The position numbers were made by a program, and so were the translations under genes. Below, in pieces: positions 2,390 to 62,300 of a DNA stretch of 64,000 bases. The notes below the pieces were generated by a model that was not told where the DNA came from, did no database searches, and saw only the letters and a program-made list of their open reading frames with translations. How positions within the stretch are numbered: the stretch's first letter is position 1; each line of letters starts with the position of its first letter. The stretch lies in contig NC_087079.1 in NCBI RefSeq assembly GCF_026151205.1, positions 5,289,230 through 5,353,229 of the forward strand. Direction: 5' to 3'. The DNA is from Bolinopsis microptera. Its lineage: Eukaryota; Ctenophora; Tentaculata; Lobata; Bolinopsidae.

Positions 2390-5300
2390 GTAAGATTCTT
2401 AAATCTTAGTCAAATTTATGATAAAGTTACGAGCACAACAAATCAGCGCAATCTTCTGCAATTTAAATCGATATTAAAGTATAGTATGTACATTGAATAA
2501 CAGGAGAAATGCATATAATGAGTTCCCAATGAGTTGCAAGGCTTGATAATATTAATGACTGATAATTGATAAAGCTAAATCCTTGCAATACCTAACCTTT
2601 AGAATGTGTAGATTGCACAGCTGTAGCTTGTTTACAATAGTGTTGTAAAAATCAACACCTATAAATTTTACGCCTGCCAAATAGTTTTAGAAGTAATTAG
2701 GAGAAATCGACTGCTGCAACACTTCTAATTAGTTATTGTAAATGTAAACACCAACGTCCAACTTGTATAGTAACGATCTAACAATAATTGTGTTCAGATG
2801 AGCCAGAAGCACAGATTAGCAACAATGATGAATCACATGGTAATTCATTTTTTCTCAGCCATTTTTGAGAAGACAAAACATTAGTCTGACTAAGATTAAA
2901 GACGATTTCATGGATTATAATTTATTTTTCGCTAAAGAAAAATTTGACTGAAGTATCTCCCATGTTTTGATAACTAAATTTCAGTGGAGAAGACCGAAAA
3001 TAGAGTTGCCAGATTCGTAATCCTCCTTGAAGAGATGTTAAGGGACTGTCCAACGAATCAAGAATCTTTACTAAGCACCAACGGATTTGCTGTTATCAGT
3101 GCACTTCTCATAAATGTACAAACATTTATCAAAACGTTACATTTGAATGAAAATGAGAGTAAAAACCCACCTCGACCTCGGGCGTGACGTTGCAGTTTGC
3201 CACCATCTTCGCCGATCAAAATAGTCGATCAAAAACTTTCATAAAATCTCGTAGTAATGACATTAAACGAAACGGTAGACCATTTATACCAAAAACGGCA
3301 ACCCCAATTGCTCCTTCATTAATTTTTTTCAGACACCTCCAGATGAATTGAATATGACATTGGTGAAGGCCCTACAATCTTTATGTCTGCTTCTGTCTTA
3401 CGATGTCAACCCAACTAATTCTAGTGACGAAGGTGATCATTGGGAAGTGTATTGCTTGTATGAACTATTCATTGTACTTAAATAGAGTTTATTTTCCAGC
3501 GTCGGGATTTATCGGAAATTTCTCCGGTTCTACTATTATACCTTAACGCTATTGAAAATATTATCGTTAGTTTTTTTATAAACTAACGATGGTTCTACTA
3601 CAATTCCAAGGTAGATATCTTACATCATAACGCTATTGAAATTGAAAATATTAATTAACGTCTAACGATAATATTATATTTTCAGCATACTCTCCTCTTC
3701 TACACGACATATACCAGCACATCTTGTTCAACTTTGAGCTGTGGTCAAAAGTGGATCATGAAGTGAGAATTGGTAAGTTGGCATGCAAAGCCTGTATTGG
3801 CGGGGTAGTGGGGAGGGGGGTTGGTTCGACGAAACCTTCGATATTTGTAAAAACTAGACTTGAATACTGGTAAAGCTAATCGTTGGAGTAAAGCCCCCTC
3901 AACTATGTAACATGATGAAACAAATTTAGTACAATGGTAATGTAATGGATAGGTATGGCAAAATATTCTTTGCTAATAGCGACGTTGCTATTTGCGCGAC
4001 TGAAATGCAATGAAAATGACCTGCCGAACATTGAAGTAAAATATTTTCTTGGAGAAATTCGAGTTTCTCTCATTTTCTTCTTGGACTAAGTGCTCACAAA
4101 GAAGGGCTTTGATGTTGATATCAAAAGGTATAATTATTTTACATAAAACTAAAAGAGCATAATTATTCTGTAAGTCGATGCTTTATAATATAAAATTCTA
4201 TTTTGGTATTTCGGTCATCATGTCTCACCACGGACATTTTCCGTACCATTTTGTCGAAGTCAAAACGATGGTAGGGATTAGGGAATAAAGAGTCGGGTTC
4301 AGATTTAAGAGACGACTCCGGGTGCCAGCAGGACAGCCACGCCCATATTTGGTCCAAATTATGCCAAATTATGCCAAATCATCTTAACATGCTTAAAACC
4401 CGGATTCCCCTGAACTCGTATATTAAGTTCCATCAAGATTGGACAAAAAATGACTGAGTTATGAGCCAAAAACCATATGCTAATATTTGGGCATACGCAC
4501 CAAATTTGATCGACTTTGGCCCATAAATTAAACAAAAATCAATATTTTCAATGAAACCAACTTTAAATAAAAGGTTAACATAAACAACACATCTTCTATC
4601 AGCTCAATATCTACCTAACTGTGGAGTGTGGATTCTGTGTTCAAATAATCGTAAAAAGTGAACAAAATCGCCCATATCTCAGTTCACGATATTCGCGAAA
4701 CTGATTTCGCTCAAAACAATAGAACTCAATAGGGTTTCAATATTTTTTCATGAAATTTTCAGAATCATCATAGAATTGCATGATGACCTTAAGTGTTTGA
4801 GTGGAATTTTGAGTTGGGCCTTTAACAAAATTTGGCGGCCAAATTCTGAAATTTGCCGGGCTTTGAGCATGTTAGGATGATTTTGGCATAATTTGGCACC
4901 GGTGGGCACCCGGAGTCCGGAACCCCCCAAAAGTTCGGCCACAGGTCTTAGTTTTCTGGTCAATTGCTGTCTCGATATCGAATTTCACAAGAAAATCAGG
5001 GTGAACCCCCCTTAATCAATTTTCTCAGCGTTTTCGAAAACACGTAAAATAGTTCGACACGTACTGTAGTTCGACAAACCCCAAATGTAAAGTTCGACTC
5101 TGTCGAACTAAAGTGCGCTACCTGTAGTAGTATAGTTCGACACGTACTAAAGTTAGACAGAGAACTGCGACTGGGCAATTACAACGAAACAAGTGCGTCC
5201 GTATGAACCGATTAAACCAACTTTTATCTTTTTTATTTTAAATATGCAGTCTGCACGCTTATGCAGCATTGAAATCGAATATTACTAGAACATGTCATGA

Positions 5301-8300
5301 CCTCTAAAGGAGTGAATATTACCAACATTACTACAACAATATAATAATTATAATAATTATATGGCCTAGGACACGTAACGTGCGATGACGTCAATGTAGA
5401 ATAATGCTGTGCAACAAAATTACAACATTCTAATAATGTAACTGACCAACTACAAAACCCACCGCGTTCAGAGTTCTTAATGTTCTGAGAGGTGCCGGTG
5501 ATGAGCGGTCACATACGCTATTTATTTGAAATAAACGCGCGAGCTGATTATAGAGGTAGCTGTCTACTCAAATTAACAAGAGATAAGCACAATCCACAGA
5601 ATGCCTGGCACTCCAAGCTCTCGTAAAATATTCTGCCTAAAAACTGTGCGTGCAGGATATAATACTGTCATATTCGGGAATAAACTGGACCCGATAATAA
5701 TCTCTAATATCAGCATGCGTCAATTACGATAAAAAATCTAGACAACATTCAGTCATTGTTTACGTCAACTCGACTAATGTACTTGCCTTCCGAGGAATTT
5801 TACTAATCTGCCTGGAATGCGTCCCAACTCACCTGTCACAACCATTAATTAAACCCTCTCCCCCTCAGCACACATTCGGTATCTTAGCGTGATAATAAAA
5901 GATAATCTACAACTTTCTCCTTTAATTAATTGATTATTTAATTAATCTCCCCCCTCAGCCCACATCCAGTATCTGAGCGTGATAATAAAGGATAATCTAC
6001 AACTGTGTCGCAGACTGTACGGAGTGCAGTTCATGTTGGACGCTGTTAGACTCTACTGTTCTAGCAATATAGAGCAGCCTGACACTGCGTGTGTCCTCAG
6101 ACGTGCCATATTTGGTGAGTTATTTTACCATATTTGGTGAGTTATTTTACCATGTTTGGTGAGTTATTTTACCATGTTTGGTGAGTTATTTTACCATATT
6201 TGGTGAGTTATTTTACCATATTTGGTGAGTTATTTTACCATGTTTGGTGAGTTATTTTACCATATTTGGTGAGTTATTTTACCATGTTTGGTGAGTTATT
6301 TTACCATATTTGGTGAGTTATTTTACCATATTTGGTGAGTTATTTTACCATATTTGGTGAGTTATTTTACCATGTTTGGTGAGTTATTTTACCATATTTG
6401 GTGAGTTATTTTACCATGTTTGGTTAGTTATTTTACCATGTTTGGTGAGTTATTTTACCATATTTGGTGAGTTTTTTTACCATGTTTGGTGAGTTGTTTC
6501 CCCATGTTTGGTGAGTTGTTTTCCCATGTTTGGTGAGTTGTTTTACCATATTTGGTGAGTTGTTTTACCATATTTGGTGAGTTATTTTATCATATTTGGT
6601 GAGTTATGTTACCATATTTGGTGATTTATTTTACCATGTTTGGTGAGATATTTTACCATGTTTGGTGAGTAGTTTTACCATATTTGGTGAGCTATTTTAC
6701 CATATTTGGTGAGTTATTTTACCATGTTTGGTGAGTTATTTTACCATATTTGGTGAGTTATTTTACCATGTTTGGTGAGTTATTTTACCATATTTGGTGA
6801 GTTATTTTACCATATTTGGTGAGTTATTTTACCATGTTTGGTGAGTTATTTTACCATATTTGGTGAGTTATTTTACCATGTTTGGTGAGTTATTTTACCA
6901 TATTTGGTGAGTTATTTTACCATATTTGGTGAGTTATTTTACCATGTTTGGTGAGTTGTTTTCCCATGTTTGGTGAGTTGTTTTCCCATGTTTGGTGAGT
7001 TGTTTTACCATATTTGGTGAGTTGTTTTACCATATTTGGTGAGTTATTTTATCATATTTGGTGAGTTATTTTACCATGTTTGGTGAGTTATTTTACCATA
7101 TTTGGTGAGTTATTTTACCATGTTTGGTGAGTTATTTTACCATATTTGGTGAGTTATTTTACCATATTTGGTGAGTTATTTTACCATATTTGGTGAGTTA
7201 TTTTACCATGTTTGGTGAGTTATTTTACCATATTTGGTGAGTTATTTTACCATGTTTGGTTAGTTATTTTACCATGTTTGGTGAGTTATTTTACCATATT
7301 TGGTGAGTTTTTTTACCATGTTTGGTGAGTTGTTTCCCCATGTTTGGTGAGTTGTTTTCCCATGTTTGGTGAGTTGTTTTACCATATTTGGTGAGTTGTT
7401 TTACCATATTTGGTGAGTTATTTTATCATATTTGGTGAGTTATGTTACCATATTTGGTGATTTATTTTACCATGTTTGGTGAGATATTTTACCATGTTTG
7501 GTGAGTAGTTTTACCATATTTGGTGAGCTATTTTACCATATTTGGTGAGTTATTTTACCATGTTTGGTGAGTTATTTTACCATATTTGGTGAGTTATTTT
7601 ACCATGTTTGGTGAGTTATTTTACCATATTTGGTGAGTTATTTTACCATATTTGGTGAGTTATTTTACCATGTTTGGTGAGTTATTTTACCATATTTGGT
7701 GAGTTATTTTACCATGTTTGGTGAGTTATTTTACCATATTTGGTGAGTTATTTTACCATATTTGGTGAGTTATTTTACCATGTTTGGTGAGTTGTTTTCC
7801 CATGTTTGGTGAGTTGTTTTCCCATGTTTGGTGAGTTGTTTTACCATATTTGGTGAGTTGTTTTACCATATTTGGTGAGTTATTTTATCATATTTGGTGA
7901 GTTATGTTACCATATTTGGTGATTTATTTTACCATGTTTGGTGAGATATTTTACCATGTTTGGTGAGTAGTTTTACCATATTTGGTGAGCTATTTTACCA
8001 TATTTGGTGAGTTATTTTACCATGTTTGGTGAGTTATTTTACCATATTTGGTGAGTTATTTTACCATATTTGGTGAGTTATTTTACCATATTTGGTGAGT
8101 TATTTTACCATATTTGGTGAGTTATTTTACCATGTTTCGTGAGTTATTTTACCATATTTGGTGAGTTATTTTACCATATTTGGTGAGTTATTTTACCATG
8201 TTTGGTGAGTTATTTTACCATATTTGGTGAGTTATTTTACCATATTTGGTGAGTTATTTTACCATGTTTGGTGAGTTATTTTACCATATTTGGTGAGTTA

Positions 8301-11300
8301 TTTTACCATGTTTGGTGAGTTATTTTACCATATTTGGTGAGTTATTTTACCATATTTGGTGAGTTTTTTTACCATGTTTGGTGAGTTGTTTTCCCATGTT
8401 TGGTGAGTTGTTTTCCCATGTTTGGTGAGTTGTTTTACCATATTTGGTGAATTGTTTTACCATATTTGGTGAGTTATTTTATCATATTTGGTGAGTTATG
8501 TTACCATATTTGGTGATTTATTTTACCATGTTTGGTGAGATATTTTACCATGTTTGGTGAGTAGTTTTACCATATTTGGTGAGCTATTTTACCATATTTG
8601 GTGAGTTATTTTACCATGTTTGGTGAGTTATTTTACCATATTTGGTGAGTTATTTTACCATATTTGGTGAGTTATTTTACCATATTTGGTGAGTTTTTTT
8701 ACCATGTTTGGTGAGTTGTTTTCCCATGTTTGGTGAGTTGTTTTCCCATGTTTGGTGAGTTGTTTTACCATATTTGGTGAGTTGTTTTACCATATTTGGT
8801 GAGTTATTTTATCATATTTGGTGAGTTATGTTACCATATTTGGTGATTTATTTTACCATGTTTGGTGAGATATTTTACCATGTTTGGTGAGTAGTTTTAC
8901 CATATTTGGTGAGCTATTTTACCATATTTGGTGAGTTATGTTACCATGTTTGGTGAGTTATTTTACCATATTTGGTGAGTTATTTTACCATATTTGGTGA
9001 GTTATTTTCCAATATTTGGTGAGCTATTTTACCATATTTGGTGAGTTATTTTACCATGTTTGGTGAGTTATTTTACCATGTTTGGTGAGTTTTTTTACTA
9101 TTTTTGGTTAGTTATTTTACCATGTTTGGTGAGTTGTTTTCCCATGTTTGGTGAGCTATTTTACCATATTTGGTGATTTATTTTACCATGTTTGGTGAGA
9201 TATTTTACCATGTTTGGTGAGTAGTTTTACCATATTTGGTGAGCTATTTTACCATATTTGGTGAGTTATTTTACCATGTTTGGTGAGTTATTTTACCATA
9301 TTTGGTGAGTTATTTTACCATATTTGGTGAGTTATTTTCCAATATTTGGTGAGCTATTTTACCATATTTGGTGAGTTATTTTACCATGTTTGGTGAGTTA
9401 TTTTACCATGCTTGGTGAGTTTTTTTACTATGTTTGGTTAGTTATTTTACCATGTTTGGTGAGTTGTTTTCCCATGTTTGGTGAGTTATTTTACCATGTT
9501 TGGTGAGTAGTTTTACCATATTTGGTGAGTTATTGCTAAAATTCGAGTATTTTTGCTGCGTCAGCAAGGCCCAGAAGGCTCCTCTCATAATCCAGTTAAC
9601 TAAAGATCTAAAATTTCTAACGGGTCTTTAAAATAATTCTTTGGTGCCATATTTGGTGCCATATTTGGTGCCATATCTGGTGAGTTGACTAGAGTATGTT
9701 ATATAATCTGTTACATATTAAGAATTATGCATCTATAACTTTATGTGTAATCGAAATGTTGAGCTGATGAAAGTGTTCTGGGGTGGAAGGATTTCCATAA
9801 CGACCACACGTGCCAACTATATAATTGCACTGCAGTTATGAATGCTGCATATCCAGTGAATTGTTGCTAGATGCAGTTAGTGGAAATTCTGTGGAACTTT
9901 CAGTATAATTATTAAAGTGGAATACTCGTTAACTCTAATCTGACTCCATAACTACTTCATAACTACCAATGTTTCTTTCTATCCAATAAGATGCCACCTC
10001 AATTTGCGAATCACCCTTTTTTTTGTGGGAAAAATTAGAGAAAAGTCGGACATGTTCAGAAAGATTTATCGAAAACTTTAGCTGTTGAAATATCGCTGAA
10101 TTGCTAATTTCACTCGCATTCTATGCACATCCGACTGTTCGTCAAGCAATATCGGATATTAATATGGAACACTAACTGTTACTATCTACTCAGGGTTCGT
10201 GAAGTTTTACATGAGACATGGTATCCAGGTAACGGAGGTCAAGTCTATTCTAGCTTTCATCGCAGTTACCCCAGATCTGGATCAGGTTAGACATAATTAA
10301 TTAATTAGACATAATTATATCAATATAATAAAACCCCGATATTCTGCGCACCTATTTACCACGGTCATTTCTTTTCCCCCAAACTCCGCGGTGAATCGGG
10401 ATTTTACTGTACTTAGTTAAATTCAATCCAGGTTCAAGATTGAGCAATCGAGAGACTTGGAAGTAGGGGCTTTGCACTTCCTCAAGCTAGTTTCATATCT
10501 ATCAACCTTATAACAATTTGAAATTGTAACAGAATAAAATCAGAATGATTTCCTACGCAGCGAACTGAATATCAGCTCTTCACAACTCTACACAACTCTA
10601 CCCACATCCATTCTGAGATATCTCATGAATTATTAAATGAGTAGACGACTAAACCAAAGAATTGGCTCTACTAAACTGTATACTGGAAACATTAAACAAC
10701 CGCCATCACTGACTGATTCCACTATAATTACTAAACTGCCCAGTGTATATAGGTACTCCTTCATAATAAAGTCGATTTCCAAGGATGGGAAGTACAGTAA
10801 TTGCCTCCCTAAAATAGCTTGTCTATAATGAAACCTGGAGACAATGCAGAGCCAACAAGGCAAACCAACAAGTGCACTAAGAGGCATGCGTACATAACAC
10901 TAATATCACTACACTCACGAACACTGTGCACTGTCACATACGAACTGCATAATGCCTAGATATTAACAATTTCACTACATTTACTCTTTCTGTAGAATTA
11001 GCTGCTCTGATTCACGGCAGATTTTAACCAGGTTTTATTTAAATCTTCTCATCAATAGTAATAATCTCAAGAGTGTGTTTCTGTCTGTCTGTCTGTCTGT
11101 GGGTAATTTCCGAACGGCTTTTGCATTTCAACTGCGATAGTGAAGTCCCGGCCGTAGGCACGGCCCGGGTTACACTAATATTCATATAACTTTAAAGACA
11201 TGTGGTTATGGGGATGAATAGCAAAATGGTCAAATCGGCAGTACAAACAAGTATTTCAACAGAAATGTAAGGGAGTTACTGCAGTGGACGAACAAAACCG

Positions 11301-38300: not shown

Positions 38301-41300
38301 TTGTCCTTTTTTGTCTTTTTTGTTCCGACACTACCCAGTTTTCCCAAACGGGTCTGTTTTATGTAACCCAATTGTCTGTCTTAGCATATAATACATAGTA
38401 CAGACAAATCTGCTTTTTTATGTCTTGCCTGTCAAGCAACTTGCTATTTAATATCCTTTTTGAGGAAAATAAGTTTGGAGAGGGGAGCATAAAAAGTTTA
38501 ATTTTTTTGATAATTATATATTAAAGCAGGCTTTTTAAAACTTAGAAATTCCCTCTTCTTCTTACTAACGGGACCTTTCTTGTCCTCTGTGGATGGATTT
38601 ATTCTTGTGGACGTAAATAATAGGAAAAAAGAAGATTTTAAAAAGATAATTTTGTTAAGTGTAAAAAAGTGTATAAAGGTGTAAAATAGTGCAAAAAAGT
38701 TTAGTGCACCACCCCCCGGCCCCCTGCATATTTAAGTTTAAATTTAGGAAAATCAAGGTTGTGGTGGAATATATTTGTGGTGGAATATATTTGTAGTGGA
38801 ATATATTTGCAGTGCAGCAATTCAAATTATAACCAGCTTTGTTCAAATTTTAACCAGCTTTGTTCAGATTGTAATTAGCTTTGTTCATGTCCTCTTAGTT
38901 TAGTTTGATCATTCGATATTCTGTGGACTGCTATTGTCTCTTCTTGCCCTTGTTAAATAATTATTCTCCAGTTTAGACTTGACAACTTGAATTTAGGTAC
39001 AGTAATGTTACCCGGTCTTCTATATGGCTAGTGTATAAATGTGATTCCCCAATGTCTGTTTTAGTGATAGTATAGTACAGACAAATCCGATTAAAAATCG
39101 CTTTTCTATTTGTTGCCTTTCAAGCAGATTGAAATTACATCCTTTTTAAGAATAATCAGTTTTTCCACGTGTCTCAACTCTCAATCGATTTCAATCATTT
39201 TTGGCAGATTCAAATGTTGTTTTTTTAAATAATTATAATCAAATAAGGCAATTAATTTGAAAAGCATTTTTTAAATGATAGTAATAATCTCTCACTACAT
39301 AAAAATATTAATATGTTGTCTCTCATTAAATAACACAAAATTACTTCGTCGTGTATATTCAATCTATACAATATATATATTATGTAAAATAGATACCGTC
39401 GAATAATCATTTTTCACTTTCTCTGCTAGCACTACGTGTTGGAAATATGACTACTGAAGTATTTACAGGAGCATAATGGCATCTTGCTTTGGCAACTACA
39501 ACTGCAAGCCTCCTTCTTTCTTCGAGAGGCTATTCCAGAAATCTTCCCCCGAACTCCAAACTCAGGACTTAAAGAAATGTCTGAACATTTTCGATTTGAC
39601 AGTGCAGGGATTGGCTCATATTGTGGGCGCAGGAATATTCATTTTGACACCAGGAGTTATAAGGATGGTTGCTGGTCCAGGATTGGTAGTCTCTTATCTC
39701 TTAGCTGCAGCAGTTCTAATATTTACTGTTCTAGCTTACATGGATTTGGGAGCTAGATACAGAGGTATTGGGAACGCGTATGTGTACGTGTACGCTGCTT
39801 TGGGAGAATTTGCTGCAGGACTCGTAGGAACGTTCATTATGACAGAAATGGCATTGGCCGTAGGCTTGGTGGCCGTGGGATTCGGGCAGAATATGGACAA
39901 GTTTATCTGCGAGGGGAACGCTCATAAACTTCAAGTTGAGTATTCTAGCACTTTTCTTCCGGATTACTTAGCCGAAAATGTCAACTTGTTGGCTATTGCT
40001 TTGATGCTGTTTTGCTGTATCATCAACTGTATCGGAGTCAAACAGGTCGCTATCGTGAATACCCTCACAGTGGCATTTAGTTCCATCTCTCTGGCCATGT
40101 ACTGCATCATTTCATTTGTGTATGGCAGTAGCAAGACATTCACCAACTCCACTGATCCTGAAACAGGAAGAGGAGGGGTGTTTCCTTATGGATTTTCAGG
40201 AGTTGTAACTGGAGCGGCTGTTGTGGTTACTTCCTTCACAGGTTTCGAATCGGTGGTCAGCCTTTCAGCGGAAGCCAAGAATTCTAAAAGAGACGTCCCT
40301 CTTGCAACAGGTTTAAGCTTCGGGATTTCTGTTCTAGTTTATCTATTAGTAAGTGCTGCTATCTCCTACCTGGTACCTTGGTATACCCTTAACGAAAGTA
40401 CGGGGATTCCTGGCTCTTTGCAAGCGCACGGTCTCACAATCCCCAAGTTTATCATTGTAGCAGCGATCCTTTTTGCTTCTGGAAGTGTTGCTCTATGCTG
40501 CCTCACCACCCTAGCTCGAGGGCTCATGGTGCTCTCTGAGGATGGATTGATTTTCAGTTGCATTGGTTTGGTGGCCGAGTGCTCTAAGGTACCTTTTATT
40601 GCAACAGTCTTCGCTACAGTTGTGATAATTTTCTTTACGATAGTGTTCTCCTACGAGATCCTTATTCATCTGTGTGCAGGAGGAGCATTGATTACTTTTG
40701 TAGCAGTCTGCTTCACTCTCATAATTATTTCTTACTCTAAACAAAAGGAAGTTGTTGATGAATCCTCGGGACTTATTCAAAACGAAGTGATGACTGAAGA
40801 ACAGCCTTCAACATCTTTGGATCAACAGGATAGTGAAATTCCCGGGGACATTGAAAATCAAGAGTGGAAAGTAATCAGTTGGATGACTATTTTCATATTT
40901 ATTTCGACGATTTGCATCGCGTTTATTTACTGGCCAAGCTCATGGCCCTTCTGGAAAATTCGTCTCCCAATAATGATATTACTTGGGTTGATAAACACTC
41001 TAATACTGATCCACATTAAGATGATCTACCACATCCAGCCTCAGAAGAATCCTGGTTTTGTGTGTCCTGGAATACCGTTTATTCCAGCAATTGGTATATT
41101 TCTCAACCTGGCTTTGTTCAGTTCCCTTGATACAATGGCGCATCTGATGACTGGTGCTTACTTTGCTGTTGGGGTCTTGATGTATTTTGGGTATGGGTAT
41201 TTTCACTCTACTATAACATTGAAGAAACAAAAAGAACTAGAACTAATTTGGAGTGATGAGACTGAGCAAGATTTAAGTTAATGATTAGATTCTGTTAAAC

Positions 41301-44300
41301 CAATTTTCTGTACTTGAGAGATACTTCCTATTTTGTAAAGATAAAATGATGAAGTATGTTTCTGTAATTAATTTCTCTGTAGCTTCTCTATAGTTTTTAA
41401 TTTCTCTGATATTTACCTCGGGCAGTTAAGTTGCGTATATTTTAACTACGACAGTAAATTCCAAAATATGGGTCAATGCTATTGATTGAGTTTTTGATAT
41501 TATTGAACTGTTGCTTAGAAATCATTTCTCTCCTGTATAATAAAGTTGTTAACTAATTTTTCTGAAAATGTTATGTTCAAATTCACCGAAGTACTAAATT
41601 TAAAGTCCTGTTTATAAAATGTATCAAAAAATTAAAAAAAGAAGATTTACTTCTCAATCTCGAAATCTCAGTAATGCAAGTCACTTCAGTGACCGGTGAC
41701 CAACCATCAAAAACCCATTTTATCTGACTCGCAAAAAATCACATCAAAGCACTTAATCGATGAGGATTAAATGATGGTGTATTCAAAGAATTTCAATTGA
41801 TTGATTTATAACGGCCAGGTAGCGCAGTTGGTTAAAACGCCAGCTTTGCAATCGTGAGGTTGCGGGTTCAAATCCCACTGTCTCATGGCCCTTCTGGAAA
41901 TTTCGTTTCCCAATAATGATAGCACTTGGGTTCATAAACACTCTAATACTGATCCACATTAAGATGACCTACCACATCCAGCTTCCGAATAATCCTGGTT
42001 TTGTATGTCCTGGAATACCGTTTATTCCAGCGATTGGTATATTTCTCAACCTGGCTTTGTTCAGCTCCCTTGATGCAATGGCACATCTGATGACTGGTGC
42101 CTCCTTTCTATACTTCCTATTTTGTAAAGATACAATGAATTATGATTCTGAAGTTAACTTCTCTGTAACTTCTCTATAGTTTATAATTTCTCTGATAATT
42201 TCCTCGGACAGTTAAGTTTTGTTTATTTTAACTGTGACAGTAAATTCCAAAATATGGGACAATGCTATTGATTAAGTTTTTGTCATTATTGAACTTTAAC
42301 TTGAAAATTATTCCTAATTTGTAACATAAAGTTATTCATTATTTTTTCTGTACTAAATTTAAAGTCCTATTTGTACAATTTATCAAAAAATTTAAAAAAG
42401 AAGATTTACTTCTCAATCTCGAAATCTCAGTAATGCAAGTCCCTTCAGTGACCGCTTTAAAATTATTTCTATTTTGTAAAAGAGAGTTACTAATAATTCT
42501 TCGTCTGTGAATAATATTTTGTTCTTAAGTCCTGTTTATAAAATGTATCAACATTTTTAAATGGTTTACTTCTCAATCTCGAAATCGGTTTAATCTCTCG
42601 CCAAAATTCACTGTTTCATCTTGCAAAATACAAAATATTTCAATGGATGGGAAACTGCGCAGAAATGATTTATCTTCATTGATGAAGGGCGACCAATAGA
42701 TCTTGAGATCCTGAAAAATTCATTTTTTCAAACGTTTCCCAACAACAAGATCACCTGCATTGGTCCTGAATCGCATAAATTATCCTCAAGCACTAAACTA
42801 TCTGGAAGGGGATTGTTTAAAACATAAAAGTGATACGAAAAGTTTGTTTATCAGGAGCTTTCAAAATACATGTGTAAACCGTCTTCAGCTAAATTGAACA
42901 GACTAAATTAAACAGACTAAATTATCTGTTTAGGCACTATACTACTTGCTATACTAGGTAGACAGCCAACCTAGACCTTGTTCAAAATTAAAATCTTTTC
43001 GACTTTTCAGATTATTCGGTATACAAAAGTCTCCGTCATACAATATATTATACAGTACATTGAATAAATATACTTTAGTTCTTCCTGTTTTCTAGAGTTT
43101 TAAGGTATTAATCATCGATGATTTGAGATGCCAACACTGCACTTTACTTTGCTCACTCATTTTAATATAAATTGGAATTTTTAAATTTTCAATTCGTGTT
43201 ATGATTAAAATGTAATATACTACATTAACAAGTACAACCCGAACTAAAAAAAATCGCCTTAGTGGAATTACCTTTCATTTTGTTGAACAGGGCAAATTAT
43301 TTTCCCTCATATCGTTTCTAAGAGCGATGAGGATCAAGGTCTTTTCTTTTTTCTTTTCAGTCAAGGTCTTACTAACCGGAACCACCAGGTCTAAAGAATG
43401 CCATCTTACACCGACTACTACAACTGTAAACCGCCTCCCTTGCTCGAACGGCTATTCCAGAAGTCTTCCCCCGAACACCAGGACCAAGACCTGAAGAAAT
43501 GTCTGAATATATTCGACCTGACAGTTCAGGGTGTGGCCCACATTGCTGGCACAAGTATCTTTATCCTGACTCCAGAGGTTGTAAAGCTGATAGCTGGACC
43601 AGGGACGGTGGTATCGTATCTGATATCTGCTTTTGTTCTGTTTTTCACTGTTCTAGCTTACATGGATTTGGGAGCTAGATACAGAGGTATTGGGAACGCG
43701 TATGTGTACGTGTACTCTGCTTTGGGAGAATTTGCTGCAGGACTTGTAGGAACGTTCATGATGACAGAGATTGCATTGACCTTGGCTCTGTATTCAGTAG
43801 GCTTTGGACAGAACTTGGATAGATATGTGATGGGGGGATACGCTCATGGCCTGCAAGTCAAGTATGCTGGAACCTTTCTCCCGGATTACTTAGCCGAGAA
43901 TGTCAACTTGATGGCTATAGCTCTGATTGTAGTGTGTTGTGTTATTAACTGTATCGGAGTTAAACAGGTGGCTATAACCAATATTATTTCAATATCCTAC
44001 GTTATCCTGGCTGACATTATGTACTGTATACTATCTCTGATATACGGAAGTAACAACACATTCGCCCACTCCACGGATCCTGATACTGGGAGGGGAGGAG
44101 TATTTCCTTATGGAGCTGCTGGTGTGGTTGCCGGGGCAGCGATCACTGTGGTTGCCTTCAATGGATTCGAAACAACAGTGTCTCTCTCAGCCGAGGCTAA
44201 GAACTCTAAAAGGGACGTCCCTCTGGCTGTGGCCCTGAGTTTCGCCATTTCCACCACGATATACGTATCAGTAACGCTAGCTATCGTCTACTTGGTACCA

Positions 44301-47300
44301 TGGTACAGCCTAGATGAGAGCACTGGGATGCCAGCTTCGCTAGATGCTCACGGTTTAACCGTACCCAAATACATTCTGATCGGGGCTATCATGTTAGCAG
44401 GTTTCAGTATTGCTCTGTGCTCTCTCACTACCATAGCTCGAGGACTGATGGTGTTCTCTAACGATGGGTTAATTCTGAGTTGTCTCAGTTTAGTGGCGGA
44501 CTGCTCTCAAGTGCCTGTAGTGGCCACCGTCACTGCTTCAGCTATAACCATTGTCTTCACCATCGTCTTCTCTTTCAAGCTACTTATACACATGGTATCA
44601 GGAGGAGCATTGTTGACTTTCTCAGCTGTGTGCTACACCCTTATCGTTATTTCTTACTCCAAACAAAAGGAAGTTGTTGATGAGTCCTCGGGTCTTGTTC
44701 AAAACGAAGTGGATAACCGATCATTCACCACGTCTGAGGCTCAAGTGACTCCAGGGTACGTTCACAATCAAGAGTGGAAGATAGTGGGATGGATGGCTTC
44801 TTTTTGTACCATCGTTACACTTTGCATCGTACTTATTTATGGGCCTAAATCCTGGTCTTTCTGGAAGGTTCGTCTGCCTATAATGATGGCACTGGGGTTT
44901 TTAAACATACTGATACTGAGCTACATCAAGCTGATTTATCATATTCAGCCCCAGAGGGACCCTGGTTTTGTTTGCCCCGGAATACCATTTGTCCCAGCTA
45001 CAGGGATAACACTGAACCTTGCCCTGTTCAGCGCTTTAGATTCAGCAGCCCATCTGATGACTATTGCTTACATTATAATTGGGATCTTCATCTATTTTGG
45101 GTATGGGTATTTTCACTCCACGATAACATTGAGTAAGAGAAAGGAACTGGAGTTAGCATCTGTCTCCGAACAGGATGAACATGATCAATGAAGTTTAATC
45201 CTATGAGAACTAGTAACGATTTTCCAGGAGATTTGTTTACAATACAATGATACACCTTCATGTTGTACGTATAATCGCCGAGTAAACACAAAAGGTTTAC
45301 AATCTTAGTCATCACTGAGAGAGGACTGGGACTATAGGGCGGGAGACTCTAGGGCGTGGAGAGATTTTTTAAACAGGGTTAGGTCTCTAGGGCGGTGGCA
45401 AAAAATCACAGAGTTGTTTTTAGTCAATTTTCTTTAAAATAACTAGCACCTATATGCTTATATGCTAATAGGACTATATATAAAGCGAGACGATATATAT
45501 TATATATGGATGGGTGGATCCGTACCATTTTACTGACACCACGGCATCAACTTTAACGTGACTTTCCACAAAAACCGTAAAATATATACAACCGAAACCT
45601 TTTTGACTGGGTCAAATGCTTTAATGGCCTCCAAATCAGCATGAAAAAATAAAAATTGGCCAAGAAATAGGAGTTTAAAGCCAAAAATTTGGACCCCCGA
45701 GTGGTGTCAAAAACGCGAATTAAATAGGTAATAATTATTTTAGTCTCTTGAGTCTTGACACCATTTTAGGGTTATACGGATTCCTGCTCGAAAACTTAAT
45801 AAAACAAAAATATTAACGTATAAAGTATTATACTAACTTCTAATAACATTAATATAGATTTTGTAATATTCCCTGATTATTGATAATAGTTACTTAACTT
45901 TATAGAACCATACAGTTTTGATTTATACTTTGTCACATATCCCCCCAATGTACAATGTAATAGTAAAACAACTAGGATTTATTAAACCATTTAAGTCAGC
46001 ATTGCGCTAATTGATATTTGATTTGAACCAGAAACTTCGTCCCCATCATAACATATCACATTAATTTTGATAAACGCCCCATGGTCGCTGAACTGGCAGG
46101 AAATATGAGAGGGGAAGGAAATGTTGTAGAGTATAAGGTAGGTGGGTCAGTGGGAGCAGGTGTGAAAACAGACTCACCAGGTGAGAAGGTGAGAGGAGCT
46201 GCAGGGCGAGGCTTGTGAGATTCTGGTAGGTGACTGGAGAAGGAACTGGGAGGTAAGCTGGAACTGGAAAGAAAGGGGTCATCGAAGTACAGAGGCTTTA
46301 CAAATGTGTGAGGCTTCACGAAAGGTAGAGGCTTAACAAAAATGGGTCCTCGAACACTATCTTTTTGAAAGAAAGTCGAAGCCTGACCGCTTTCATGAAA
46401 AAAACTTGAGTTATTCCGCTGATACAGTTTTTCGCCAGTATGAGTCATCTGATGGCTAACTATGAGTGAATTTTTGATTGAACTGTATGAACATTCTGAG
46501 CATTTATACGGTTTTTCACCGGTATGAGTCATCCGATGGTTAACTAGGTCTGATTTTTGGCTTGAACTGTAGGAAAATTCGGTGCATTTATATGGTTTTT
46601 CACCGGTCTGAGTCATCTGATGTCGAACCAGGGTTGATTTCCAGCCAGTACTAAAGGAACATTCAGAGCATTTATATGGTTTTTCACCTGTATGAGTCAT
46701 CTGATGGTTAAGCAAGTTTGATTTTTGGCTTGAACTGTAGGAACATTCAGAGCATTTATACGGTTTTCACCGGTATGAGTCATCTGATGTTGAATCAGGG
46801 TTGATTTCAAGCCAGTACTAAAGGAACATTCAGAGCATTTATACGGTTTTTCACCGGTATGAGTCTTCTGATGGCGAACTAAGTTTCCTTTTACGCTTGC
46901 ACTGTAGGAACATTCAGAGCATTTATACGGTTTTTCACCGTTATGAGTCATCTGATGATTAAGCAGGTTTGATTTTTGGCTTGAACTGAAGTAACATTTG
47001 GAGCATTTATACGGTTTTTCACCGGTATGAGTCCTCTGATGGTTAAGCAGGTTTGATTTTTGGCTTTAACTGTAGGAACATTCAGAGCATTTGTGTGGTT
47101 TTTCACCGGTATGAGTCATCTTATGGTTAAGCAGGTTTGTTTTTTGATTTGAACTGTAGGAACATTCAGAGCATTTATACGGTTTTTCACCGGTATGAGT
47201 CCTCTGATGTTTACTTAGGTTTGATTTTCGGCTTGAACTGTAGGAACATTCAGAGCATTTATACGGTTTTTGATTTTCACCGGTATGAGTCCGCTGATGC

Positions 47301-50300
47301 CAAACCAGTGTCGATTTTAGGCTTGAACTGTAGGAACAATCGGAGCATTTATACGGTTTTTCACCGGTATGAGTTTGCTGATGTGAAACTAAAGCTGTTT
47401 TTTGGTTTGCATTGTAGGAAAATTCGGAGCGAATGTAAGCATTTTCACTGGTATTAACCCACTGGTGGCAAGCTATTGCTGACTCCTGGTTGGGACAATC
47501 CAACTGAGAAACTGCATTTGAATACACTTCTGATTTAATAAGAAAATTATTTTCCTCCTTCTTAATCTCTGTCTTGATCAATTCTGGTGGAAAACTTTCT
47601 TCTTCCATCTTCATTTCATTTTTAACGTCTGGAACATTTTTCTGCTCCATTTCACTAATAAGTCAAGGACTGTACAAAACTAAATGTCAGTGTTTATTTG
47701 AAGAGCTTTTCGCTTTGTTTACATCTGACATCAGGCAGAAACAAGCTTATAAAAAGTGATGGTAGTAACCCAGAAAATAGAAAACAAACGAATGTGGTTA
47801 CCAAATTTGAAACAGGTTAACAAGGTATTCGGATAATGCTGATACTTATAAAGCTACATAAAGCTATTAAACTACGAAACTTAATGTTCTAAACATTTAC
47901 TAGAAGTGATCTCCAAACTAAAGCTTCAGTACAACTGTTAGTTTGAGCTTCGCACCATAGGTTTTAAATAACAGCAGTTCACTGTTCAGATGTTATATGA
48001 GCTAGCCTCTATGTGGTCCACAGGGCGGAGGAACAATACTGTGTGTGTATAATAAGTGTATAACTGCAAATTACATTGTCTAAAGCCAAATGTTTAACTT
48101 AAAAGTCTAAATTTCAATGAGGTTCAGGAATAGCGATCCAGCTTGAGGAGTAATTGATTTTCCAAGTTTCGCCCTCTTTTGTTCTTTTTCATTTATTGAT
48201 ATAAGTATAATTTGCCATCTGATAAAATGCATTACTAATGAAATTACTTGACAGTACATTTTTGTTGGAGGAAAAAATTGTTCTATATACTTTCTTTCGC
48301 ATGTTTTTGATGTTACGTCATAAAAAACTTTTGACCCTAAATATACAGTCATTATCACAATACACTGATGATGCAATACGGATTACGATAAATCATTCTA
48401 CACTAGAATGACTATTGCTTACATTATAATTGGGATCTTCATCTATTTTGGGTATGGGTATTTTCACTCCGCGATAACATTGAGTAAGAGAAAGGAACTG
48501 GAGTTAGCATCTGTCTCCGAACAGGATGAACCTGATCAATGAAGTTTAATCCTATGAGAACTAGTAACGATTTTCCAGGAGATTTGTTTACAATACAATG
48601 ATACACCTTCATGTTGTACGTATAATCGCCGAGTAAACACAAAAGGTTTACAATCTTAGTCATCACTGAGAGAGGACTGGGACTATAGGGCGGGAGACTC
48701 TAGGGCGTGGAGAGATTTTTTAAACAGGGTTAGGTCTCTAGGGCGGTGGCAAAAAATCACAGAGTTGTTTTTAGTCAATTTTCTTTAAAATAACTAGCAC
48801 CTATATGCTTATATGCTAATAGGACTATATATAAAGCGAGACGATATATATGGATGGGTGGATCCGTACCATTTTACTGACACCACGGCATCAACTTTAA
48901 CGTGACTTTCCACAAAAACCGTAAAATATATACAACCGAAACCTTTTTGACTGGGTCTTGACACCATTTTAGGGTTATACGGATTCCTGCTCGAAAACTT
49001 AATAAAACAAAAATATTAACGTATAAAGTATTATACTAACTTCTAATAACATTAATATAGATTTTGTAATATTCCCTGATTATTGATAATAGTTACTTAA
49101 CTTTATAGAACCATACAGTTTTGATTTATACTTTGTCACATATCCCCCCAATGTACAATGTAATAGTAAAACAACTAGGATTTATTAAACCATTTAAGTC
49201 AGCATTGCGCTAATTGATATTTGATTTGAACCAGAAACTTCGTCCCCATCATAACATATCACATAAATTTTGATAAACGCCCCATGGTCGCTGAACTGGC
49301 AGGAAATATGAGAGGGGAAGGAAATGTTGTAGAGTATAAGGTAGGTGGGACAGTGGGAGCAGGTGTGAAAACAGACTCACCAGGTGAGAAGGTGAGAGGA
49401 GCTGCAGGGCGAGGCTTGTGAGATTCTGGTAGGTGACTGGAGAAGGAACTGGGAGGTAAGCTGGAACTGGAAAGAAAGGGGTCATCGAAGTACAGAGGCT
49501 TTACAAATGTGAGAGGCTTCACGAAAGATAGAGGCTTAACAAAAATAGGTCCTCGAACACTATCTTTTTGAAAGAAAGTCGAAGCCTGACCACTTTCATG
49601 AAAAAAACTTGAGTTATTCCGCTGATACAGTTTTTCGCCAGTATGAGTCATCTGATGGCTAACTATGAGTGAATTTTTGATTGAACTGTATGAACATTCA
49701 GAGCATTTATACGGTTTTTCACCGGTATGAGTCATCCGATGGTTAACTAGGTCTGATTTTTGGCTTGAACTGTAGGAACATTCGGTGCATTTATATGGTT
49801 TTTCACCGGTATGAGTCATCTGATGTTTACTTAGGTCTGATTTTCGGATTGAACTGTAGGAACATTCGGAGCATTTATACGGTTTTTCACCGGTATGAGT
49901 CATCTGATGGCGAACTAAGAGTGAATTTTTGATTGAACTGTAGGAACATTCAGAGCATTTATACGGTTTTTCACCGGTCTGAGTCATCTGATGTCGAACC
50001 AGGGTTGATTTCCAGCCAGTACTAAAGGAACATTCAGAGCATTTATATGGTTTTTCACCGGTATGAGTCATCTGATGGTTAAGCAAGTTTGATTTTCGGC
50101 CTGAACTGTAGGAACATTCAGAGCATTTATACGGTTTTTCACCGGTATGAGTCATCTGATGTCGAATCAGGGTTGATTTCAAGCCAGTACTAAAGGAACA
50201 TTCAGAGCATTTATACGGTTTTTCACCGGTATGAGTCATCTGATGGCGAACTAAGAGTGAATTTTTGATTGAACTGTAGGAACATTCAGAGCATTTATAC

Positions 50301-53300
50301 GGTTTTTCACCAGTATGAGTCATCTGATGTCGAACCAGGGTTGATTTCCAGCCAGTACTAAAGGAACATTCAGAGCATTTATATGGTTTTTCACCGGTAT
50401 GAGTCATCTGATGGTTAAGCAAGTTTGATTTTCGGCTTGAACTGTAGGAACATTCAGAGTATTTATACGGTTTTTCACCGGTATGAGTCATCTGATGTCG
50501 AATCAGGGTTGATTTCAAGCCAGTACTAAAGGAACATTCAGAGCATTTATACGGTTTTTCACCGGTATGAGTCTTCTGATGGCGAACTAAGTTTCCTTTT
50601 ACGCTTGCACTGTAGGAACATTCAGAGCATTTATACGGTTTTTCACCGTTATGAGTCATCTGATGGTTAAGCAGGTTTGGTTTTAGGCTTGAACTGTAGG
50701 AACATTCAGAGCATTTGTGTGGTTTTTCACCGGTATGAGTCATCTTATGGTAAAGCAGGTTTGATTTTTGATTTGAACTGTAGGAACATTCAGAGCATTT
50801 ATACGGTTTTTCACCGGTATGAGTCCTCTGATGTCGAATCAGGTTTGATTTCCAGCCAGTACTAAAGGAACATTCATAGCATTTATACGGTTTTTCACCG
50901 GTATGACTCATCTGATGTTTACTTAGGTTTGATTTTCGGCTTGAACTGTAGGAACATTCAGAGCATTTATACGGTTTTTGATTTTCACCGGTATGAGTCC
51001 GCTGATGCCAAACCAGTGTTGATTTTAGGCTTGAACTGTAGGAACATTCGGAGCATTTATACGGTTTTTCACCGGTATGAGTTTGCTGATGTGAAACTAA
51101 AGCTGTTTTTTGGTTTGCATTGTAGGAAAATTCGGAGCGAATGTAAGCATTTTCACTGGTATTAACCCACTGGTGGCAAGCTATTGCTGACTCCTGGTTG
51201 GGACAATCCAACTGAGAAACTGCATTTGAATACACTTCTGATTTAATAAGAAAATTATCTTCCTCCTTCTTAATCTCTGTCATGATCAATTCTGGTGGAA
51301 AACTTTCTTCTTCCATCTTCATTTCATTTTTAACGTCTGGAACATTTTTCTGCTCCATTTCACTAATAAGTCAAGGACTGTACCAAACTAAATGTCAGTG
51401 CTTATTTGAAGAGCTTTTCGCTTTGTTTACATCTGACATCAGGCAGAAACAAGCTTATAAAAAGTGATGGTAGTAACCCAGAAAATAGAAAACAAACGAA
51501 TGTGGTTAACAAATTTGAAACAGGTTAACAAGGTATTCGGATAATGCTGATACTTATAAAGCTACATAAAGCTATTAAACTACGAAACGTAATGTTCTAA
51601 ACATTTACTAGAAGTGATCTCCAAACTAAAGCTTCAGTACAACTGTTAGTTTGAGCTTCGCACCATAGGTTTTAAATAACAACAGTTCACTGTTCAGATG
51701 TTATATGAGCTAGCCTCTATGTGGTCCACAGGGCGGAGGAACAATACTGTGTGTGTATAATAAGTGTATAACTGCAAATTACATTGTCTAAAGCCAAATG
51801 TTTAACTTAAAAGCCTAAATTTCAATGAGGTTCAGGAATAGCGATCCAGCTTGAGGAGTAATTGATTTTCCAAGTTTCGCCCTCTTTTGTTCTTTTTCAA
51901 GTATTGATATAAGTATAATTTGCCATCTGATAAAATGCATTACTAATGAAATTACTTGACAGTACATTTTTGTTGGAGGAAAAAATTGTTCTATATACTT
52001 TCTTTCGCATGTTTTTGATGTTACGTCATAAAAAACTTTTGACCCTAAATATACAGTAGTTATCACAATACAATGACGATGCAATACGGATTACGATAAA
52101 TCATTCTACACTAGAATGACTATTGCTTACATTATAATTGGGATCTTCATCTATTTTGGGTATGGGTATTTTCACTCCACGATAACATTGAGTAAGAGAA
52201 AGGAACTGGAGTTAGCATCTGTCTCCGAACAGGATGAACCTGATCAATGAAGTTTAATCCTATGAGAACTAGTAACGATTTTCCAGGAGATTTGTTTACA
52301 ATACAATGAAACACCTTCATGTTGTACGTATAATCGCCGAGTAAACACAAAAGGTTTACAATCTTAGTCATCACTGAGAGAGGACTGGGACTATAGGGCG
52401 GGAGACTCTAGGGCGTGGGGAGATTTTTTTAACAGGGTCAGGTCTTTAGGGCGGTGACAAAAAATCACAGAGTTGTTTTTAATCAATTTTCTTTAAAATG
52501 ACTAGCACATATATCAATATGGGACCCGTCCGATGTTGGATGTCCCTGTTTGCAAGGCTTGTTCTAACGATCAGTTCTTCCATTGGTTTCTGATACTTGC
52601 TTTTACTTGCTAGGCTAATTATGCTAAGGTCACTATGAGTTATGACCATCTCATCGTTATGACCATCTGCTCTGCCGAAGCCCGAAGGTGCTTGGCTTAA
52701 ACAGCTGTACAATATCGCCATTCGATTCTCCCACATCCTCTAAAATTACACAAATTTATATCGATAGATATGGATTTTATGATATGATTTAAAAAGGTAC
52801 AGTAAGTAAAAGTCTCCGCCCAAAATTGTTTATGTACAGGGTGTTTCAAAAGTCTGGTAGAATGTGGTGCGCTCTAAAATGTACATTAGTGGGCTAGTGT
52901 CTGTTTTCCAAATATTAGCACTTTTGCAGGCTAGACACTCTTTTGTCTTTAGAAATTGAAGAAATATCACGGTGATATTATATTTTTAGTTAGTCTTTGT
53001 TCGTAATGAGATTTAATTTGTTATAAAATATTGTACACCTTTATCACATGTTAGCTGTACATTGTACAATATACATACAATGTACAATGTACATTTTACT
53101 AACAAGTTGAAAACCTGAACACATTTTTAAAACTCACGCTTTGCATTCCTCTGTTTTTTAACGATAAACACATCTTTTGATAAGGCTAAATTCCACCTTT
53201 GTTCTGGAACAATTCATACTACACTCAGTTTCTTTTGATAGACCTCAGCTGTTTCCCACTCTATATAACTATATTACGGTAAACTATATTACGCAGTTTT

Positions 53301-59300: not shown

Positions 59301-62300
59301 GAGTCATGAATTTAGTTTTAATGTCGTTCATGGCTAGCCCCACACTCAGTGCTGCGTTAATTAGATAATTAGGTATTGAACAGCAGCACTAACCAGACTA
59401 GTTCAACGGCTCAGAAAGTGACATGACTCCTGTTGATCACTAGTAGAAATTAGTAAAGCTATTAATAATTAGCAAAACAACCTGCCTTCGGTAACTGTTG
59501 GTAGGGAGCATCACGGCTCTCTGCATTTGTAGTTAAAAAGGCACCATCCAGATACAATTTTGTTCTAATGTGACCGCGAGATTATTCCCTGCGTTATTAA
59601 CTATTTAAAACAGCTGGAGGCTGACCAGATCTGATGAGCGGTCCAAAGTACGAACTGCAGCAGCAGGGCGCTTGCGTTGAACAAATAAACACTACGCCTA
59701 TTATGTAATTTCACAAGAAACTGCTTAGTTACGTTATATTAGAACATTGCGTGTCTCAACATAAACTATACATATCACAGTATCCACTTGATGATGTGAA
59801 AATTATACAATAAAATCGTATTAAAAAGATAACTATTATAATGATAACATGTTATCATTATAATAGTTATCTTTTTAATACGTTATAACAGATAAGACTG
59901 AAATATCCTTATAATGTAATAAATGCATCTAAAAACACTTCAATACGAGTACCTACCTCGATAAGAATTCGAATGAGCACTACAGTAACGCCCCCTCTAG
60001 TAACCAAAGTAACGCCCCCTCTAGCAACCAAAGTAACACCCCCTCCCCCCCCCCCCCCCCCCCTTTAGTAACCAAAGTAACTTCCCCTCTAGTAACCAAA
60101 GTACCCCGCCCCAACCCCATCCCCCCCCCCGGCTCCCTCTGTAACCAAAGTAACACCCCCCTCTCTTCAGACCAACTACCGGACATGTTGTTAATGCAGT
60201 CTCTAGTGCAGCTACTGCCCCTCTAGTAACCAAAGTGCCCCCCCCCCTCCCCCCCCCCCCCCCTCCCCCCCCCCCCCCCCCTAGTACCCAAAGTAACAAC
60301 CCTCTCTCTTCAGACCAACTACCGGACGTGTTGTTAATGCAGTCTCTAGTGCAGCTACTACCCCGGTTTGGTCTCACTACTCGCCTGCACGTGGTACAGG
60401 AGCTACTGGTACTCACTAGAACTAACCTAAAGTTGGGGGAACAGTACAGTTTACTACCTTCCTGGTACAACGCCGTACTCTGTCTTATGCTCGGTTAGTC
60501 ACGCTATGTCACGTGGTTAGTCACGTTATGTCACGTGGTTAGTCACGTTATGTCACGTGGTTAGTCACGTTATGTCACGCTATGTCACGTGGTTAGTCAC
60601 GTTATGTCACGTGGTTAGTCACGTTATGTCACGTGGTTAGTCACGCTATGTCACGTGGTAAGTCACGTTATGTCACGTGGTTAGTCACGCTATGTCACGT
60701 GGTTAGTCACGTTATGTCACGTGGTTAGTCACGTTCTGTCACGTGGTTAGTCACGTTATGTCACGTGGTTAGTCACGTTATGTCACGTGGTTAGTCACGT
60801 TATGTCACGTGGTTTAGTTAGTTACGTTATGTCACGTGGTAAGTCACGTTATGTCACGCGGTTAGTCACGTTATGTCACGTGGTTCAGTTAGTGTAGACA
60901 ATAGACATGACTCTCTTTGGTGAACATTTTTTATAAGTTGGCTAATTTCTTACCAATTTAATACCAGGTGTTTTGAAAGTTTAAACATGACTCTATTGGG
61001 TGTTTTGAAAATGTCTTATAAGTTGGCTAATTTCTTATAAATAAGCGTTAAAAATAATTTGGTGTATTTTTTTTCGAAATTTCAATAAAATTGAGAAAAA
61101 TTTCGAAAAATTCCATTTATTTCGAAAAATAAAGCCCCAATCGTTCTGAAACTATCATTCGCCTGCCATAAAGTGGCCATTGCGGTCATTTTGCACCCCC
61201 TATGGAGATCTCAAGACCTTCGGGAGCCGAATAACCAATATTAGGGGTGGGGCGTATGGGTTCCTGGAGAAAAATGACTATGAAAATTTTTGCCCAAAAG
61301 TTTCAGCTGGACGGTTTTTTTTTGTGGTTCCTGGGACTATGGACAACACATTCCTGTAGACAAACCTTTGTTACGAATTTGTTCACAGATTGACCCATAA
61401 ACAGCAATTCTTGCCCTAACTATTAGTCAACCTCCTCTTTAGCTGAAGTCATGAGCTGCAATAAATTGTTTTATTGATTTGTTAATTACATGATATTTGG
61501 TAAAAGTACACTGGATTAATCAGGAGGAGGGAGTGAGGAGGAGGGAGGACTACAAGAGCAACTATTTGTAACTATAATGGAGCTGCTACACACCATACTG
61601 TGGAGGTACTACGAGAAAGCAGGCTCCCTCACTAAGGACCAGATAGGAAGGATACTGCTTGCTGTTGATGAGCTGGAGAGCAAGATATTTAAAACTACTT
61701 CTGTTATCAAGATGAGGTAATTATTAGTAACCAGTTTAGTAACTATTGGTAACCAGTTTAGTAACTATTGGTAACCAGATTAGGGTTACTGTTAGTTACT
61801 AGGGTATCAGATTATTTGGGGTTTTGTAGGTTGCGATTCGAAAAGTTTGTTTCTATCTCTTATATCGTCAATTACAGTGATTTCTTCAATTCTTCTGGAT
61901 GAGAAACAAGATTTATGTATTATAAATGTTAATAAGATTTATAATTCAGTTCAACATTGAGTACGATAAAGTTAAAGTAGGTGGACATAGATATTCGTCT
62001 CATAAAATTCGTATGATACTATCGGTGTTACAGCAATCATTATCCAGTTTATTTCTTACTCTTCTTCTTTGCCTCTGATTGATTAATTATCAAAATTGAA
62101 AAAGGGCTGTGTTTGAGGGTTAGCCTGTGTGACCAGATGCTAAATAGTATACTGAAAAGAGTTTACTTTTTTGGGTTTCGTTACTTTTTAAATGTTTTTA
62201 GGGGGCTCCTCTCTTTAATCAACAGCAGTGATTTCATTAGTTTTTTTTCTAAAAAGGGCTTACGATTGACAATTTATTCCAACTTTGGGTGTTTTATATA

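Follow-up and report, generated by a model that had tools for sequence, protein, structure and literature searches.

A 22-bp minisatellite across a 5' splice site in Bolinopsis microptera looks like one of a recurring kind of repeat

Minisatellites that take in a 5' splice site are described for two human genes. In CBS, a 31-bp variable number tandem repeat (VNTR) lies across the boundary of exon 13 and intron 13 (c.1444_1467+7) in 16-21 copies (PMC2630376, PMC5188458, PMC1395315), and more units are reported together with lower CBS activity (PMC5188458). In ABCA7, a 25-bp VNTR of intron 18 starts at the exon 18 donor, with GT as its first two nucleotides (nt), and ranges from 12 to 427 copies; retention of one unit, shifting the frame, has been seen, and where arrays are longer, exon 19 is skipped more and expression is lower (PMC5954066). 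Here, we analyze a 22-bp minisatellite of ~156 copies that begins inside a coding exon of a neurobeachin/NBEAL-type gene of Bolinopsis microptera. The window, the whole stretch of 64,000 nt that was analyzed, corresponds to C8:5289230-5353229 in a 264.65-Mb assembly of 232 contigs. With a probability of roughly 70%, we read the element as a donor-spanning minisatellite that is tolerated, whose first donor is the one used, and which belongs to a recurring class with 5' splice sites as preferred starts.

A sequence-only reading of this DNA had held that no named element type covers the array, which the CBS and ABCA7 cases contradict. As in those cases, the first unit appears to overlap the 5' splice site of an exon supported by homology, and a putative donor is present in each unit. 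The CBS unit, which we read as 24 exon plus 7 intron nt, likewise spans the boundary and should bring a donor with every copy; the CBS array, however, amounts to 16-21 copies at one locus, whereas the present one has ~156 and is among several such arrays of a single gene. The ABCA7 VNTR sits on a 5' splice site as the present array does, although its published unit begins at the GT and ours includes 9 exon nt. Human segmental-duplication genes are described as holding internal tandem repeats at boundaries, where minisatellite variation alters splicing, with 27 intron modifications (PMC2812944). These too are minisatellites at exon-intron boundaries, but they average ~4 copies of ~30 bp and are tied to new introns, whereas here the intron was pre-existing and the array is far larger. 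In UBC, tandem dual-specific splice sites (AG|GT) make each unit both donor and acceptor, and the units encode ubiquitin (PMC10809524). Both loci are tandem arrays of splice sites, usable in UBC and known here from sequence, but the 22-bp unit has TG|GT in place of AG|GT and introduces a stop; in all 156 copies the bases before the donor GT are TG, once TC, and never AG. Among the literature matches listed, we recognized no precedent for a class of 5'-splice-site minisatellites beyond the CBS, ABCA7, segmental-duplication and UBC papers; PMC3039753, PMC12783039 and PMC3549977, as far as their accessible text goes, are not precedents. Taken singly, the array adds a large example to a known kind; what seems new is that such arrays recur, both inside one gene and genome-wide.

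The exon concerned, exon 6 in a local numbering (exons further upstream were not sought), lies at 5959..6114 on the + strand, has an open frame and a CAG acceptor, and ends in phase 1 at ATATTTG|GTGAGT. The 4079-bp intron holding the array (6115..10193, +) separates it from the next coding exon, exon 7 (10194..10285, +; start phase 1, end phase 0), so the phases match across the intron, and the flanking exons, when joined, translate to a DUF4704 (neurobeachin/BDCP) stretch (Pfam, E = 1.2e-23). In this one assembly, Tandem Repeats Finder (TRF) returns 6106-9534 as a single + strand array with a period of 22, 155.9 copies and 92% matches, which the unit table resolves into 155 full units plus 19 nt. 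Unit one consists of the last 9 exon nt, within which the array begins, and 13 intron nt. The donor GTs run from 6115 to 9525, a distance of 155 x 22. The ~156 tandem copies that the sequence-only reading had placed at the exon's donor are thus present, and the boundary that its unit was said to span looks real, judging by the open frame, the acceptor and the matching phases.

The array is composed of CCATATTTGGTGAGTTATTTTA units plus 23 full-length variants. GT stands at the donor position in 156/156 copies, TTTGGTGAGT is unchanged in 128 and GGTGAGT is retained in 129. The exon part of the unit is variable, the commonest change being CCATGTTTG for CCATATTTG, with G in 68 of the 155 full units. 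Marker variants reappear at multiples of 22 bp and the longest exact run inside the array is 853 bp at a 38-unit lag (836 bp), which agrees with the higher-order amplification proposed earlier; tested lags not divisible by 22 all gave <40% identity. Such block recurrence is, as far as sequence can tell, the signature of unequal exchange operating on blocks of units. Over-expansion of a much shorter true array during assembly would have the exact 853-bp repeat at the 836-bp lag on its side, this being the type of block that an assembler could duplicate. Other repeated blocks have differing lags, however, several unit variants occur a single time, and arrays of the same kind are present at unrelated places, and we consider over-expansion very improbable. 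When a 110-nt five-unit probe was searched against the genome, with simple repeats and very common words skipped, 45/45 matches fell inside the array; a dispersed satellite inserted at the donor was discarded as a candidate, the unit being found within that search at 6106-9534 alone. At 9640..9690 (+) there is a second, small cluster, seen in the sequence, in a TRF row (9640-9682) and in a scan, where the exon's last 12 nt (GTGCCATATTTG) form a 12-bp repeat of ~3.6 copies followed by the donor-like GGTGAGTTGAC.

The genome search for other boundary-spanning minisatellites that had been suggested with the first reading led to further 5' splice site arrays in the same gene and in other genes, which that reading had missed. 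Setting TRF rows against the exon model of the gene, all on the + strand, we found a second donor-spanning array with the 22/44-bp unit GGTTAGTCACGTTATGTCACGT starting 1 nt inside exon 60314-60493 (60493..60885), a 22-bp x 3 array from the first intron base behind exon 61524-61716 (61717..61783), and, behind exon 63002-63125, a 47-bp x 6.1 array whose start lies 2 nt past the first intron base (63128..63416). An exon that occupies 63893..64000 of the window and runs beyond its end to 64045 ends at ..GAGAAG|GTAAGT, and its last 8 nt are where a 23-bp x 74 array begins (64038-65770 in window numbering; L033:38-1770). The modeled introns number 22 (6 of the 5' part of the gene and 16 of the 3' part), and an array was called sizeable at a minimum of 2.5 copies and 60 bp. 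Of the six sizeable arrays in these introns, five have their start no more than 10 nt from the 5' splice site, against 0.16 expected; their offsets from the first intron base are -9, -1, 0, +2 and -8 nt, and the sixth starts 801 nt in. No permutation reached five of six, among 200,000 in one run and 300,000 in another. With the given array left out, 4/5 are at the 5' splice site (0/300,000 permutations), and when arrays were held in their own intron the observed count was reached in 0/300,000 permutations for all six and in 1/300,000 with the given array left out. Among all TRF rows of period 10-150, 7/11 start at the 5' splice site. At the 3' splice sites of the same 22 introns, 0/6 sizeable arrays and 0/11 TRF rows end within 10 nt. 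The arrays at 60493-60885, 64038-65770 and 112260-112448 (L037:8260-8448) have in common the intron start GT(A/T)AGTCACGT(G), or a close form of it, and are rich in the palindrome CACGTG; the donor-anchored array at 63128-63416 is built of GTAACCATAGTAAC, which we take to be an X-box-like palindrome.

A wider view came from 273,930 contiguous bases around the window, in which TRF rows of period 10-100 and at least 3 copies were reduced to the best where they overlapped. The unit contains GGTRAGT in 2 of the resulting 74 minisatellites and the reversed word in 0/74; these two are the longest of the 74, namely 6106-9534 and 64038-65770. Genome-wide, we looked for a word occurring three times with spacers of 7-37, with the reversed word as control. 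For AGGTAAGT this gave 474 + 761 = 1,235 places against 11 for the reversed word (~112-fold), place counts being per unit and so overstating array numbers, against a 1.35-fold ratio for single words (10,758 vs 7,965 reversed). All 11 reversed places fall in one array on contig C13, whose other strand reads ACAAG|GTAAGA. GGTGAGT x3 occurs at 2,920 places vs 889 for its control. Counted as distinct arrays, GGTGAGT x3 yields 10 on C1 to 11.64 Mb vs 3 for the control (4 if clusters 1.4 kb apart are counted separately), and AGGTAAGT x3, among the places listed, 7 in ~29 Mb (two with an identical unit) vs 1 control array in 265 Mb. The same word also recurs at longer periods, at C1:428574-430927 (~54 bp x 43), C1:885211-885466 (~55 bp x 5) and C1:1164786-1174575 (~1,034 bp x 9).

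Thirteen tandem-donor arrays were examined, comprising all 10 distinct ones among the listed GGTGAGT places and 3 of the 6 that the listed AGGTAAGT places added. On C1, an ADAM-like exon (Reprolysin 6.1e-4, just below the cut-off), with what is presumably a disintegrin-type tail, is joined to an array of a 44-bp unit holding ~33 exon nt. A sushi-like exon (sushi 0.022, below the cut-off; neighboring exon 5.4e-5) carries an array of a 34-bp unit with ~26 exon nt, a USP-like exon (UCH 0.017, below the cut-off) one of a 29-bp unit with ~7, and an exon-like open stretch with no Pfam match one of a 44-bp unit with ~40, the exon portions all being estimated by eye. In the sushi-like gene, a second donor-spanning array of ~four copies, ..CTGAAGTTATAG|GTGGGTCTCACTTTTAGAATTTGTA, is visible by eye at L057 ~455-615. 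At ~110-126 kb in window numbering lies an adhesion G protein-coupled receptor (GPCR)-like gene (GPS 1.9e-9, 7tm_2 1.5e-17), in which arrays trail each of two exons predicted by a crude exon finder. One of these, with no Pfam match, ends at 120795, and behind it lies a 34-bp x 8 array with units of 26 exon plus 8 intron nt; the TNFR-like exon ending at 112255 (2.9e-5, below the cut-off), after which comes an LDLa exon (5.3e-9), has a 30-bp array from its +4 position. The joined predicted exons 120659-123702 had no open frame in any of the three frames, and some of the predicted edges are therefore wrong. The same gene contains a 94-bp x 14.7 array (114714-116092; L038:714-2092) that begins ~14 nt after a likely donor, ..CCTTGTTCCG|GTAGTGACG, just beyond the 10-nt window (by eye).

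Besides the per-unit nature of the place counts, several points weigh against a recurring class tied to 5' splice sites. The 10-nt window was set after the arrays had been seen. Among the 12 tandem-donor arrays (C1/C2) with the start reached, a sense exon end is the starting point for 4, the C1 cases described above, but not for the other 8, 2 of the 8 lying apparently beside an opposite-strand exon (by eye) and 6 having no visible exon. Outside the gene, the exon-finder test placed 2/45 sizeable arrays at a donor vs 0.87 expected (P 0.22) and 3/153 TRF rows vs 3.04 expected; at a stricter cut-off the figures were 0/45 vs 0.40 and 1/153 vs 1.42. Because the crude finder recovers only 13 of the 22 listed exons of its own training gene with exact ends, this test says little for or against the class. 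In an annotation-free edge test, 5/102 array edges had donor-like sites vs 3.0 expected, the test having 6 for the 3' edge control and being not significant; when an open acceptor-bounded stretch upstream was also demanded, there were 5 vs 1.6 expected. No exons turned up between 10.3 and 60.3 kb in the scanned frames, and the link of the 5' and 3' parts into a single gene is one that we infer. The simplest alternative would be chance location, in which a few arrays of a minisatellite-rich genome happen to take in a donor and 5' splice sites have no special part. The 74 minisatellites in 274 kb, the two non-significant tests outside the gene and the 8/12 examined arrays that lack a sense exon at their start all favor it, but the 5/6 arrays placed at the 5' splice site, with 0/6 at the 3' splice site, over 22 introns, and a ~112-fold excess of AGGTAAGT triples vs 1.35-fold for singles, speak against it, and we think it unlikely. 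The array appears to represent a repeat type that recurs in this genome and has rare counterparts in humans, and not an isolated case.

Frame consequences were computed for donor copies 1-8. Splicing at copy 1 restores the original frame free of stops, as at no other copy among the eight. Copy 2 would add 22 nt and shift the frame by +1, exon 7 still being read without a stop, and use of copies 3-8 would include an in-frame TGA. An in-frame TGA had been predicted for any read-through to the second unit; this stands from copy 3 on but not for copy 2, since the TGA straddles donor 2 (TG|GTGA). The broader expectation that wrong copies should damage the message would be right for copies 2-8, by frameshift or TGA. 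Donor 6115, the first, is probably the working one.

The sequence-only reading had also offered a splicing sink, a U1 sponge or a tunable switch, for which we found no support. Across the 22 columns of the unit, 6/18 minor alleles fall in the 7 donor columns, with 5.7 expected; there is no minor allele in the two GT columns, an outcome that chance gives in ~18% of cases, and GT in 156/156 copies is for this reason not evidence for function. Selection on the donor columns thus appears to have left no sign, with no constraint visible, and the U1 sponge or switch was rejected, as the donor shows no selective upkeep over the rest of the unit. One gene's intron is, moreover, a small load on U1, which counts against a splicing device. 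In favor of such a device, whose copies would serve as sink, sponge, donor back-up or length-tuned switch, are the GT kept in every copy and the ABCA7 report, where longer arrays accompany more exon 19 skipping and lower expression (PMC5954066). With the donor columns free of excess conservation, we regard it as quite improbable. The repeats might otherwise be arrays of transcription-factor sites, acting as enhancers or factor sinks: 79 units have a perfect CC(A/T)6GG box and the array holds 79 CCATATTTGG, and the other donor-anchored arrays hold 63 CACGTG and 12 X-box-like sites vs 110 and 7 elsewhere in the 274 kb (CArG-like and X-box-like being names that we presume to fit these boxes). The G breaks the box in 68/155 full units, however, the motif changes between arrays, and the box derives from exon sequence, so we give this account hardly any credence.

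The anatomy, the frame consequences and the recurrence with its statistics are properties of the assembled sequence. For a tolerated donor-spanning minisatellite, the most likely course of events is as follows. A short tandem duplication would have taken in the final 9 nt of the exon together with the intron's first 13, and unequal exchange in blocks of units would have amplified the duplicate within the intron. The exon-proximal donor 6115 would stay in use and the other 155 would leave with the intron; occasional use of a later donor would lead to a frameshift or stop, and the array would be tolerated rather than selected. A duplication spanning an acceptor would place the false acceptor first and should fare worse, which would explain why arrays are found at donors but acceptor-side copies are one-off partial exon duplicates (by eye). 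Partial duplicates of exon starts, each with its own CAG acceptor, lie directly upstream of three exons of the same gene (5959, 60314 and 66857), at 5869..5915 (+), 60171-60229 and L033 ~2695-2735 (near 66700), all by eye and with approximate ends. Array starts could cluster at donors because minisatellites are born more often at 5' splice sites or because they are better retained there; a birth or retention bias of this kind, first-donor use and near-neutrality are probable rather than observed.

Turning to the host gene, its 3' part consists of 17 + strand exons from 60314 to 71391 that join in an open frame with the final stop only and match DUF4800 (2.5e-29), PH_BEACH (1.1e-21) and BEACH (1.6e-103) in Pfam; this part looks intact. 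It probably forms one NBEAL-type gene with the 5' part (to 10.3 kb), in which the exon ending at 3115 has a weak and uncertain donor. A scan with stops read as X found no neurobeachin domain in three frames of 10290-40233 and two of the three frames of 40210-55192; its only rows were permease, extensin-like (below the cut-off) and S-100. Amino-acid permease (SLC7-like) matches, which include two separate C-terminal domains, lie at ~34.6-36.2 kb and ~41 kb on the same strand between the two parts, so that the gene would either have a very long intron with nested genes or be rearranged. A duplicate of the gene elsewhere was rejected, as all six protein matches to the 5' part (E up to 0.001) are in this one locus. 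A protein search with the 238-aa exon join scored 0/757 candidates, probably since the relatives are far longer, and a PDB search gave no match.

Elsewhere in the window, 84-bp repeat arrays at 46422-47374 and 49625-51082 read by eye as minus-strand C2H2 zinc fingers (CSECSY..HTGEKPY); their flanks are similar at 45330 and 48681, and they are probably two related zinc-finger genes. A plus-strand open frame occupies 1-730 at the left edge, which by eye we take to be the GIY-YIG end of a Penelope-like retroelement. An insertion-like segment at 4310-4925 has the inverted ends ACTCCGGGTGCC / GGGCACCCGGAGTCC, resembles by eye a miniature inverted-repeat transposable element (MITE), and contains one CCATATTTGG.

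If the class is real, the origin of minisatellites would be tied to the 5' splice site, and CBS and ABCA7 would turn from disease-related curiosities into examples of a general process. It would also supply natural tests of an old question, how the spliceosome chooses among near-identical 5' splice sites, with as many as 156 copies competing in normal genes and wrong choices penalized by a disrupted frame. We see about even odds that, across the genome of this animal, minisatellites preferentially arise at 5' splice sites or survive there. Duplications of an exon end with its donor would then keep arising and spread into the intron as the exon-proximal donor wins, those spanning acceptors would fail, introns would grow from their 5' end, and the genome would hold dozens of natural contests between near-identical donors.

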